Translations under genes and position numbers: made by a program
The notes under the pieces: model-generated
What the model saw: the letters and a program-made list of their open reading frames with translations, nothing else
Databases searched by the model: none
What the model was told of the DNA's origin: nothing
Origin: Crossiella sp. CA-258035
GTDB taxonomy: Bacteria > Actinomycetota > Actinomycetes > Mycobacteriales > Pseudonocardiaceae
Assembly (NCBI RefSeq): GCF_030064675.1
Contig: NZ_CP116413.1
Location: 4,992,001 to 5,056,000 of the forward strand
DNA length: 64,000 bases
Direction: 5' to 3'
Shown here: one piece after another, positions 58,561-61,620 of the stretch
How positions within the stretch are numbered: the first letter of the stretch is position 1
How the letters are laid out: every line of letters begins with the position of its first letter

Positions 58561-59799
58561 GTGCAGGCACCATCACGCCGGCCATGGTGGCCACCGCGCC
58601 GGGCGAGTCCCGCGGACGCGGCGGTCGCGCTCGCCCTCCTCGCCATCGGTCTGCTGCCCCCGCTGCTCGGCTCGCTCTGGTGGCCGGCCGACGCCTACCC
58701 GTGGCCAGGGGTGCTCGGTCAGGCCGTGGCCAGCCTGCTGGTGCTGGGCCGGAGCGTGGCCCCGGCGGCGGTGGCCTTCGGGCTGACCGGGGTGGTGCTG
58801 GCCGAGCTGGCGGTGCCGGGCCTGCTGCTGCCCTCGAACCTGGCCACCGTGCCCTGGCTGGCCGCCGCGCTGGGCCTGGCCGCGTTCACCGTGCCCCGCG
58901 CCCGGCAATGGTGGTGGTGGCCGCTGGCCGGGGTGGCCGCGGTGCTGGCCGCCCAGCCGTGGCGGCTGGACCTGGGCATCACCGCCACCGGCCTGCTGCT
59001 CACCCTGCTCCCGGTGCTGCTGGGCCGCCACCTGCTGGCCCGCCGCGCGCTGGCCCGCGCCGAGGCCGAACGCGCCGGGCACGCCGACACCGAGGCCCGG
59101 CTGCTGGCCGAACAGGCCCGCGCCGAGCAGCGGGTCCGGCTGGCCGGGGAGATGCACGACGTGCTGACCCACCGGGTGAGCCTGATGGTGCTGCAGGCGG
59201 GCGCGCTGCGGATGACCGCCCCCGACGAGGCCACCCGCCAGGCCGCCGAGGACCTGCGCGCCGCGGGCTGCCACGCCCTGGACGAGCTGCGCGACCTGGT
59301 CGGCGTGCTGCGCACCCTGCCCGCCAAGAGCGCCAACGGCGAGGCCGCGGTGGAAGCCCCGGCGACCGCGCTGCCGGACCTGTCCGCGCTGGTCGCCGAG
59401 ACGGTGTCGGTGGGCATCGGGGTGGACCTGGTGCAGGACGGCTCGCCGGTGCACACCTCGCCGGTGGTGGGCCGCACCGCGTTCCGGATCGTGCAGGAGG
59501 CCCTGGCCAACGTGCGCAAGCACGCCCCGGGCAGCCAGGTCAGGGTGCACGTGCGCTACGGCGCGGACCGGGTCTGGCTGAGCATCCGCAACACCGCCCC
59601 CGCCGTCGCCCGCCTCACCACCGCCCCCGCCGGCCCGCCCACCGGCGGCGGCCTGCTCGGCCTGCGCCAGCGGGTCGCCCTGGTCAGCGGCACCATCAAC
59701 GCCGGCCCCCGCCCCGACGGCGGCTACTCCGTCGACGCCATCCTCCCCGCCTACATGCCCACCGGCTCCCACGCCGACCTGGCCCGCCACGCCCGCTGA
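58561..59799 (+). CDS. Orphan NarL-type sensor histidine kinase
   Basis: A 412-residue kinase. About five N-terminal membrane helices (residues 20-160) are followed by the dimerisation/phosphoacceptor helix AGEMHDVLTHRVSLMVLQAG near residue 195 (His of MHDVLTHR) and an HATPase_c domain with ALANVRKHAPGSQVRVHV near 315 and GGGLLGLRQRVALVSGTINA. It is the DesK/NarL class. Start GTG 58561. No response regulator gene follows, so the partner is elsewhere. Confidence 0.88.
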   Translation: MQAPSRRPWWPPRRASPADAAVALALLAIGLLPPLLGSLWWPADAYPWPGVLGQAVASLLVLGRSVAPAAVAFGLTGVVLAELAVPGLLLPSNLATVPWLAAALGLAAFTVPRARQWWWWPLAGVAAVLAAQPWRLDLGITATGLLLTLLPVLLGRHLLARRALARAEAERAGHADTEARLLAEQARAEQRVRLAGEMHDVLTHRVSLMVLQAGALRMTAPDEATRQAAEDLRAAGCHALDELRDLVGVLRTLPAKSANGEAAVEAPATALPDLSALVAETVSVGIGVDLVQDGSPVHTSPVVGRTAFRIVQEALANVRKHAPGSQVRVHVRYGADRVWLSIRNTAPAVARLTTAPAGPPTGGGLLGLRQRVALVSGTINAGPRPDGGYSVDAILPAYMPTGSHADLARHAR

Positions 59800-59812
59800 C
59801 CCCTCCCCCATC

Positions 59813-59978
59813 GTGTTGGCCGATCTCGTACGGAGTCTTGGCCGATCTCGTACCCGGTGTTGGCCGAAGTGGTACGGGGTGTTGGCCGCTCCGGCGCGCC
59901 AGCGGCCAACACCCCGTGCGAGAACGGCCAACACACGGTGCAGGTTCGGCCAACACGGCGTACCAGAACGGCCAACAC
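59813..59978. repeat. 22-bp units: four direct then four inverted (166 bp)
   Basis: Starts of the core GTGTTGGCCG (one copy GTCTTGGCCG) are at 59813, 59835, 59857 and 59879, exactly 22 bp apart. The inverted core CGGCCAACAC then begins at 59903, 59925, 59947 and 59969, again 22 bp apart. The centre pairs as GTGTTGGCCGCT and AGCGGCCAACAC with a 10-nt loop. Variable parts such as ATCTCGTACGGA differ between units. The array lies between convergent genes; no ORF uses it. Confidence 0.95.
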
Positions 59979-59985
59979 GGCGGGT

Positions 59986-60015
59986 GCTGCCGGGCGGGTG
60001 GAGCCGCCCGGCAGC
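59986..60015 (-). terminator. Hairpin terminator of the sugar dehydrogenase gene
   Basis: GCTGCCGGGCGG-6-CCGCCCGGCAGC is a perfect 12-bp stem seven bases after the minus-strand gene end. Confidence 0.7.
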
Positions 60016-60021
60016 TTCGCC

Positions 60022-61506
60022 TCAGCGGATCTCACTCCGCAGGACGCGGTCGGAGCCGGGGCCCTGGCCGCCGTTGCCGTCGGCGTTGGTGGTGCCGATC
60101 CAGATCGCGTTCGCACCCGGCACCTTCACCACCGCGCGCAGGCGGCCGAAGCTGGTGAAGTGGCTGGTGGTCGCGCCCGCGCTGGTGCCGTTGAGCTCGA
60201 CCCGCCACAGCCGCTGCCCGCGCAGGGCGGCGATGTAGGCGGTGTCGTTGACGATGGCCAGCGAACTGGGCGAGGCCTCCGCAGTGGTCCAGGTCCGCTT
60301 CGGGTTCTCCATGCCGCTGACGTTGCAGTTGCCCTCGCACTGCGGCCAGCCGTAGTTGCGGCCGGGCAGGATCAGGTTCAGCTCGTCGGTGGAGACGTTG
60401 CCCAGCTCCGCCGACCACAGCCGACCAGCCGAGTCCCAGGCCAGGCCCTGGGCGTTGCGGTGGCCGTAGCTGTAGACCAGCGAGTTGAACGGGTTGCCCG
60501 GCGCGGGCGCCCCGGTGCGGGTGAAGCGCAGGATCTTGCCGGCCACGCTGCCCAGGTTCTGCGCCAGGCTGGTGTTCTGCGCGTCACCGGCGGTGGCGTA
60601 GAGGAAGCCGTCCGGGCCGAACTTGAGCTGGCCGCCGTTGTGGAAGCGGCTGGCCGGGATGTTGTTGACGATGACCTGGCGGTTGCCCAGCGTGCTGCCG
60701 TTGAAGCTCATCCGCACGATCCGGTTGGCCTGCGCGCCGCCGTCGTTGGAGGTGTGGAAGAAGAACACGTCCTGGTCGCTGGTGCCGTTCCAGGTCGGCG
60801 AGACCGCCACGCCCATCAGGCCGCCCTCGCCGCCGGTGGTGGTGCTGTTGGGCACCGTGCCCACCTGGGTCCTGCTGCCGTTGAGCCCGGCCCGGAACAC
60901 CCGGAAGGTGTCGCGTTCGGTGATCAGCGCGGACTGGCCGTCCGGCAGGAAGGACACCGCCCACGGGATGGACCAGCCGGTGCTGACGTTGGCCGGCGGC
61001 TGCGGGTTGCCGCGACCGGGGGCGGGCGCGGTGTCCACGTCCAGGGCGTCCAGGTTGGGTCCGCCCGCGGCGGTGGCCCCGGTGGCGCGGATGGTGTTCG
61101 CGCCCGCGTTGAGCGCGGTCGTCACCGTGACCGACTGGTAGGTGGTCCAGCCGTTGCTGGGGAAGGCCAGGTCGTTGGACACCAGGTTGCCGTTGACCGT
61201 GATGTCCAGCGGCCGGTTCGCCCCGCTGCCGTTGGCGTAGCGGAAGGACAGCACCGCGTTCGGGCTGGCGGTGGCGGCGTTGACCGTCCACTGCACGTAG
61301 CTGCCCGCCACGTTGTCGCTGTTGACGAAGCCGCTGCCGCTGAAGCCGGCGTGGTTGGACTCCACCACGCCCTGGGAGATGGTCGCGGTCTCCGCCTCGT
61401 GGCGCACCGGGGCCGCACCCGCCTGCCCGGCGGGCAGCACCAGCGCGCCCGCCACGACCACCACCGGCAGCCCCGCTCTGGTAAGCGCTTTCATGCCAGT
61501 TCTCAT
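60022..61506 (-). CDS. Secreted PQQ-type sugar dehydrogenase with CBM-like N-domain
   Basis: A 494-residue exported protein. A signal peptide (TRAGLPVVVVAGALVLPAG) is followed by a carbohydrate-binding-module-6/35-like domain (EAETATISQGVVESNHAGFS, then GSGFVNSDNVAGSYVQWTV, about residues 36-155) and a soluble glucose dehydrogenase-like six-bladed propeller: GWSIPWAVSFLPDGQSALIT, RFHNGGQLKFGPDGFLYATA, GHRNAQGLAWD and ELNLILPGRNYGWP. Such enzymes oxidise aldoses; PQQ binding is likely but not seen directly. ATG 61506 has GAGAGGAACG upstream. Confidence 0.85.
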   Translation of the reverse strand: MRTGMKALTRAGLPVVVVAGALVLPAGQAGAAPVRHEAETATISQGVVESNHAGFSGSGFVNSDNVAGSYVQWTVNAATASPNAVLSFRYANGSGANRPLDITVNGNLVSNDLAFPSNGWTTYQSVTVTTALNAGANTIRATGATAAGGPNLDALDVDTAPAPGRGNPQPPANVSTGWSIPWAVSFLPDGQSALITERDTFRVFRAGLNGSRTQVGTVPNSTTTGGEGGLMGVAVSPTWNGTSDQDVFFFHTSNDGGAQANRIVRMSFNGSTLGNRQVIVNNIPASRFHNGGQLKFGPDGFLYATAGDAQNTSLAQNLGSVAGKILRFTRTGAPAPGNPFNSLVYSYGHRNAQGLAWDSAGRLWSAELGNVSTDELNLILPGRNYGWPQCEGNCNVSGMENPKRTWTTAEASPSSLAIVNDTAYIAALRGQRLWRVELNGTSAGATTSHFTSFGRLRAVVKVPGANAIWIGTTNADGNGGQGPGSDRVLRSEIR

Positions 61507-61582
61507 AACCGTTCCTCTCGAGTGTGCGGTGAGGGAAGGCGGTTTCCCGTGGCGGCGGGATTCTCGGGAGAACCAAAAACAT

Positions 61583-61611
61583 GGTGCGGCAGCCCGGTCG
61601 GCTGCCGCACC
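61583..61611 (-). terminator. Intrinsic terminator after the GH1 gene
   Basis: GGTGCGGCAGCC-5-GGCTGCCGCACC forms a perfect 12-bp stem; on the minus strand it is followed by ATGTTTTTGG, giving a T5 run. It lies 10 bp after the GH1 stop. Confidence 0.85.
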
Positions 61612-61620
61612 GGCCATTCG

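Follow-up and report, generated by a model that had tools for sequence, protein, structure and literature searches.

REP/BIME elements are present in many copies in intergenic DNA as mosaics of both orientations, and the sections of the literature drawn on here place REPs mostly between convergent and unidirectional genes (PMC3733652). Pneumococcal BOX elements are, in the cited sections of their description, modular, with inner units repeated in tandem a variable number of times, structured when transcribed and over-represented between convergent genes (PMC3049150), and uptake sequences are portrayed in part of another account as a short motif whose complementary pairs form hairpins (PMC2267715). 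MITEs are non-coding elements with inverted ends and many copies, and intrinsic terminators place a stable hairpin directly after a stop codon. Here, we describe an array of inverted 22-bp units from Crossiella sp. CA-258035, found in a window of 64,000 nucleotides (the whole stretch of DNA analysed), together with the family to which it belongs. The open-licence literature yielded no description of this repeat family (most subscription journals lay outside that scope), and what is new relative to that literature is the anatomy of inverted tandem arrays that take up the interval from one stop to the other, and a triple-hairpin companion element.

The window array occupies positions 59813-59978 and consists of four 22-bp units followed by four inverted ones, 166 bp in total. 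Its + cores start at 59813, 59835, 59857 and 59879 and its - cores at 59904, 59926, 59948 and 59970, with a spacing of exactly 22 bp in each half; these coordinates agree with the four direct and four inverted units described in the original prediction. The core is GTGTTGGCC, and the second unit deviates, reading GTCTTGGCC. The central stem, predicted to be a perfect 12 bp, is longer: 17 bp perfect in DNA, and 19 pairs including one G-U in the predicted RNA. The neighbouring genes converge on the array as had been stated, a histidine kinase gene (+) on the left and a glucose/sorbosone dehydrogenase gene (-) on the right, and a separate hairpin (59986-60015) takes up part of the gap on the right. 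The features are as follows.

58561..59799, + strand: left flank gene, sensor histidine kinase (HisKA_3, HATPase_c), ending 13 bp before the array
59800..59812, no strand: C-rich left outer arm, from stop codon to first unit
59813..59887, + strand: left half, made of four 22-bp units in direct orientation; core GTGTTGGCC, with GTCTTGGCC in the second unit
59888..59903, no strand: central 16 bp GCTCCGGCGCGCCAGC, comprising the loop and the inner end of the 17-bp perfect stem
59904..59978, - strand: right half, made of four units in inverted orientation, which read GGCCAACAC on the + strand and lie exactly 22 bp apart
59979..59985, no strand: G-rich right outer arm
59986..60015, no strand: separate short hairpin with 12-bp perfect arms, between array and right-gene stop
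60022..61617, - strand: right flank gene, glucose/sorbosone dehydrogenase with CBM_35, ending 43 bp past the array

Used as a BLAST query, the window array found at least 86 matches in its own genome (G000, whose contig begins at dnaA; best 40 of 214 candidates scored), and the pattern GTGTTGGCC-N13-GTGTTGGCC, with up to two mismatches, matched there 302 times compared with once for a reversed control. Uniqueness in the genome had been named as the outcome that would speak for a local duplication; the array is not unique, and the search of this and related genomes for the unit, as originally proposed, reveals a family that extends to three other Crossiella species. A total of 81 stretches was sampled, 69 around unit-pair matches and thus picked for holding arrays, 11 controls and the window, and genes were called with our own unvalidated codon-usage ORF model. 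This yielded 88 resolved arrays, each with two or more units and together comprising 472, counting array 3398262, which includes two chance matches within a gene, and array 8916490, which sits in a control stretch. Among the 88, 52 have the form >>><<< (type A, the form of the window array), 18 the form <<<>>> (type B), 16 are tandem-only and 2 are mixed. Same-strand units follow one another at 22 bp in 266 of 310 steps and at 21 bp in 40. That such arrays are nothing but local duplications, arising in situ through slippage and template switching, is highly unlikely; the 21/22-bp steps inside them are as that account would have it, but the occurrence of one unit at 88 places, and also in four species, refutes it as the sole explanation, and slippage and template switching may still shape array length.

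The consensus unit of 22 bp (sometimes 21 bp) is GTGTTGGCCG-WWS-TCGTAC-SSN. The prediction that the core is kept while the rest varies is right for the core and too sweeping for the remainder, as positions 10, 14, 16, 18 and 19 each hold one base in at least 91% of units (266 same-strand 22-bp steps in the 88 arrays). The WWS triplet at positions 11-13 is TTG, ATC, AAG, TTC or AAC in 246 of the 266 units. At the outer ends of type A arrays, C stands at -4 in 95 of 104 and at -5 in 85 of 104 cases (both ends of 52 arrays); type B ends are unlike these. Outside arrays the core words are not enriched (26 occurrences; 40 permuted words averaged 28). This count bears on the idea of a binding array for a sequence-specific protein of nucleoid, roadblock or uptake type, with 22 bp as two helical turns, which we consider unlikely. 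Single bases in 98-99% of units at positions 10, 16, 18 and 19, the restriction to five WWS triplets and the 16 of 88 arrays that are tandem-only with the same units would suit it, but there are no isolated sites, core words outside arrays being at chance, the position at gene 3' ends is strict, and the same-species strain SN42 is almost without arrays. A chromosome-organising role, another of the original suggestions, found no positive support.

In position the arrays are tied to stop codons. Both neighbours are known for 87 of them: convergent genes flank 60, another 27 follow a codirectional gene, and none lies in a divergent gap or within a gene, compared with 182 convergent, 885 codirectional and 251 divergent array-less gene pairs in the same stretches (Fisher p 8e-29). 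A facing stop codon is at most 15 bp away in 73 of the 87 (median 9 bp), which gives the mapping against gene ends that had been called for, and both stops are at most 30 bp away in 45 of the 60 convergent arrays. The median convergent gap is 154 bp with an array and 5.5 bp without, so that the array makes up practically all of the intergenic region. Convergent gene pairs mostly do without one: arrays were present at 0 of 32 such pairs in the 11 control stretches and at 1 of 10 in the window, the window array itself. In G000 the 0.85 Mb after dnaA (C1:1-848280) holds no exact unit pair; arrays of another Crossiella species (G002) occur from 65 kb of its contig on, so this origin-proximal absence is no general rule.

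Avoidance of divergent gaps and 3' placement (60, 27 and 0 of the 87) are REP/BIME-like. The 20-40 bp REP/BIME unit is self-palindromic, whereas the Crossiella unit is not (best register 8 of 22 in one typical unit), and the strict 22/21-bp tandem period also sets the arrays apart. The GTAG/CGTC end tag of REPs is missing from the core and from the base counts at unit positions 10-22. The RAYT transposase (Y1_Tnp, PF01797) had 0 matches in G000, SN42 (G060) and a third genome of the genus (G003), one match with an internal stop in G002 and three in G001, with 5 of 14 control genomes positive; a RAYT-driven REP was rejected, there being no Y1 transposase in G000. BOX elements resemble the arrays, by description only, in modularity, variable tandem number and convergent placement. 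They differ in their boxA and boxC end modules and come from another phylum, and an inverted array of a tandem unit is not described in the cited sections (PMC3049150). Uptake sequences differ in that the Crossiella unit has no excess of single copies outside arrays and has a 22-bp tandem period; a scatter of single motifs of that kind was rejected, core words outside arrays being at chance. A CRISPR was rejected as well, since the 13-nt stretches between cores share one consensus across arrays. The differences from CRISPR, simple terminator and ordinary REP element in the original prediction all hold. Carriage by phage is disfavoured by 0 exact matches in a viral contig collection, and known Rfam families by the lack of a gathering-score match in six loci with the companion core element; by E-value the window stretch had three Rfam matches, all far below gathering scores.

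Once transcribed, an inverted array is predicted from its sequence to form a long hairpin. RNA of 59800-60021 folds at a predicted -162.3 kcal/mol (z -10.9, with 0 of 200 shuffles as good), and 70 predicted pairs link the left and right halves. Across the family, median z is -9.8 for type A (n=52), -9.1 for type B (n=18) and -0.1 for tandem-only arrays (n=16), and the RNA folding proposed as a check therefore gave values of -10.9 for the window region and a median of -9 to -10 for inverted arrays. A stable hairpin behind a stop is accordingly a property of the 70 inverted arrays and not of the 16 tandem-only ones, whose lack of folding implies that the unit may act without a hairpin. Arrays with their own right half differ from those with a swapped one by an average of -3.0 kcal in type A (p 0.03, 46 arrays) and -3.6 kcal in type B (p 0.07, n=15), and since a swap costs only about 3 kcal, the pairing is mostly supplied by the common unit. 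The outer flanks of an array match their own mirror only slightly better than the flanks of other arrays do.

Such folds would probably terminate transcription from both sides. Like intrinsic terminators, the inverted arrays place a stable hairpin directly after a stop codon, and they differ in that type A ends are not enriched in T-tracts: at least 4 T in 8 was present at 24 of 104 ends compared with 157 of 676 random intergenic spots, and at least 5 T in 8 at 7 of 104 compared with 56 of 676. Intrinsic terminators are also far shorter. At the window array a terminator-like site was sought and none was found. Type B ends are richer in T at the lower threshold (17 of 36 compared with 157 of 676, p 0.002), but the excess is gone at 5 in 8 (3 of 36 compared with 56 of 676), and the GTTGT within the unit itself may account for it. 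The bidirectional terminator of the original prediction is plausible, if unproven: position and fold support it, and the missing type A T-tails, along with strong hairpins at just 6 of 34 array-less sites of SN42, do not. That the palindrome is a selected device, kept for ending both convergent transcripts with mobility incidental, we regard as possible and doubt, since position and folding fit it, as would the T excess of type B ends at the lower threshold, but the type A ends lack T enrichment and 1 of 42 convergent pairs (window and 11 control stretches) has an array, that one being the window array itself.

By DNA similarity, nine of 60 related genomes matched, five of them outside the genus (G012 and four with single weak matches). 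Unit-pair matches (control in brackets) numbered 263 (2) in G001, 728 (3) in G002 and 303 (5) in G003, the three other Crossiella species, 9 (2) in the same-species strain SN42 and 3 (1) in G012, where three loci carry similar units at period 21, as judged by eye. Thirty-six G000 sites, the window's own site lying outside this set, were mapped in SN42. At 34 the array was absent, meaning that no exact core was present (a decayed array would escape), and a short tandem run was kept at 2; site 3398262, with its match inside a gene, is counted as without array, and excluding site 7633021, which came from a locus fetched for a unit pair, 34 of 35 sites are without array. Eighteen of the 34 array-less sites have less than 12 bp between the aligned flanks, and two long ones stand outside the 14 that were folded, which gave 6 strong hairpins (at most -0.5 kcal per nt) and 8 weak ones. 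The ordinary strong hairpins at sites that carry an array in G000, including two (2217550 and 2236400) with A/T runs, would be expected of a selected terminator, but the 18 short and 8 weak sites would not; in SN42, sites without an array mostly lack a strong hairpin and so have no need of a terminator. These hairpin-poor orthologous sites and the missing type A T-tract speak against a strong need for termination.

The lineage-specific, non-autonomous mobile element of the original prediction gains from the genome family, the presence/absence at 34 of 36 sites and the occurrence in three other Crossiella species, and loses from the lack of a mobilising enzyme in the Y1 and RVT_1 searches and of a constant target duplication. 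In one version of it, a classic MITE is moved by a DDE transposase, the C-rich ends being its TIRs and duplicated stop sequence its target duplication; we judge this distinctly unlikely. The non-coding nature, possible inverted ends and many copies are MITE-like, type A arrays do have C-rich ends, and target duplications are suggested at some sites (TAGC at 4079746, ACGCTTAG at 7004990, TAG at 6275477), two of them, 4079746 and 7004990, looking like duplications of the stop region. But sites 2291111, 2344902 and 6790200 look like plain insertions without duplication and 2217550 and 2236400 like replacements of the whole interval, selection on both genes would likewise keep duplicated stops, and type B ends are unlike type A ends. 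No duplication of constant length was seen at the six clearest sites (0, 3, 4 or 8 bp, by eye), a difference from MITEs. Enzyme searches covered the Y1 and RVT_1 families. A reverse transcriptase as spreader was rejected: RVT_1 is present in all five Crossiella genomes, and because these include array-poor SN42, it does not correlate with the arrays.

Nineteen sites were reached via flank homology in G002, leaving out 2200099 (its gap is common with 2199920) and 848281, 2021543, 2492882 and 8106913 (loci fetched for holding arrays or cores). G002 has an array at 11 of them, with the first unit in the same direction in 11 of 11. As far as sequence comparison can tell, the 11 may reflect loss in SN42, parallel gain or exchange, and for the 8 without a G002 array gain in G000 would be simplest. 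Sites common to G000 and G002 but empty in SN42 are hard to reconcile with a simple recent burst in G000.

Several convergent gaps in G002 hold a non-coding element of about 930-1000 bp, which comprises a core in either orientation and unit arrays at both ends. It occurs at G002 loci L198-L203 (e.g. L202:1871-2825) and in part at L204, and its core at G000 loci L220, L225, L229, L233, L237, L241 and L245. A 641-bp core query found at least 37 near-full-length copies in G002 (best 40 candidates scored). There were 12 copies in G000 and some in SN42; those in G001 were shorter, and G003 gave a single weak match. Arrays flank the core on both sides in all four G001 loci examined, and 14 core copies examined in G000 and SN42 stand without arrays; G000 copies follow a facing stop at a distance of 5 to 95 bp (7 of 7), and another, 7230308-7230914, abuts an array. 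The 641-nt core is predicted to fold into three giant hairpins (-405.5 kcal/mol). Among 22 copies (12 from G002, 7 from G000 and 3 from SN42) there are 142 consensus pairs, 30 with two-sided compensatory changes, many of which represent one split between G002 and G000 plus SN42. Template switching can also keep palindromes complementary, and the compensatory changes are for that reason no proof of an RNA role. Six loci with the core element had no Rfam match at gathering score.

Coding ends beside arrays differ between the two strains. From 100 to 400 bp inside these ends, G000 and SN42 are 97% identical, while the last 25 bp before the array are 87.1% and the next 25 bp 92.9% identical (55 gene ends; the mapping was independent of the last 100 bp). 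Array-less gene ends are 95-98% identical in all bins (11 convergent and 60 others), and over the last 50 bp array and array-less ends differ at Mann-Whitney p 1.4e-4 (convergent) and 1.3e-10 (others). Third-codon positions account for 111 of 179 differences in the last 30 nt compared with 313 of 454 further inside, and silent changes rise near the array (91 of 509 codons compared with 28 of 670), with 62 compared with 22 for replacing changes. With G002 as outgroup, derived states fall on both strains, G000 and SN42: at 0-25 bp they stand at 24 to 20 where G002 has an array and 19 to 24 where it has none, and at 25-50 bp without a G002 array they lean to G000, 14 to 5. Random hypermutation beside arrays is not favoured, because the extra differences keep the third-codon bias; exchange of short diverged tracts, or old polymorphism unsmoothed by recombination, fits better than random mutation. 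As an observation in itself, the island of divergence spans about 50-100 bp and occurs in this strain pair only at coding ends beside arrays.

It seems to us rather unlikely that array alleles spread between Crossiella lineages by short-tract recombination at orthologous gene ends, replacing those ends with no transposase. Such alleles would overwrite whatever lay between the stops (nothing, a terminator or the three-hairpin element) and would carry about 50-100 bp of each coding end. Were this true, the divergence island would be their footprint, and a self-spreading structural module would be rewriting the transcript ends of a bacterium.

The arrays are palindromic, of two polarities, or short tandem runs, they stand behind stops, and their presence differs between close strains. 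On the best reading, the family is BIME- or BOX-like in behaviour and different in anatomy. We think it reasonably probable that it is a non-coding, non-autonomous interspersed repeat of Crossiella, sited at gene 3' ends, that ends transcripts in a long hairpin and is built on a 22-bp (sometimes 21-bp) unit. Arrays probably form the hairpin at the transcript end: read from either gene, an inverted array would yield a long RNA hairpin, which may stop or trim transcription from both sides and shield 3' ends. The array would multiply as an element, selfish or close to neutral, that is tolerated at gene 3' ends. Slippage of units would change its length, and alleles with and without array would pass between strains along with about 50-100 bp of the coding end on either side. 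In the relatives, the larger 3'-end element with its triple-hairpin core and array ends may belong to the same system. Evidence against this interspersed-repeat reading is the lack of T-rich type A tails, the unfolded tandem-only arrays (16 of 88) and the slightness of mirror complementarity beyond the family consensus. Two strains about 97% identical, one with about ninety resolved arrays and the other with almost none, amount to a natural experiment, useful for asking whether transcription terminates at the palindromes, how strains gain and lose them, and what causes the diverged coding ends.

In named genome records the exact pattern was present in 63 stretches, from Crossiella sp. S99.2, SN42, a Bacteroidales group and scattered others, the last mostly with two units only. 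The Bacteroidales MAGs, several from rumen, carry tandem, non-inverted period-22 arrays with the GTGTTGGCC core and array-specific 13-nt stretches (loci L026, L028, L029, L030, L043, L045, L048, L050, L051, L056, L058, L064, L073, L081, L083 and L086); because the search pattern imposed core and spacing, kinship with the Crossiella arrays cannot be claimed. Within G000, nine tandem-only arrays are codirectional (2199920, 2200099, 2291111, 2572620, 4989777, 5728562, 6588317, 7633021 and 8916490), and 7 of the 9, not 2200099 and 2572620, show GUGUUGGCC when read in the direction of the gene with the facing stop. A different gene-end repeat (GGCGCGCTCCGCGCGCGGGATTTTT...) lies in the left flanks of G000 arrays 848281 and 2959185 and also at the G002 site (L173) orthologous to G000 array 6269531.
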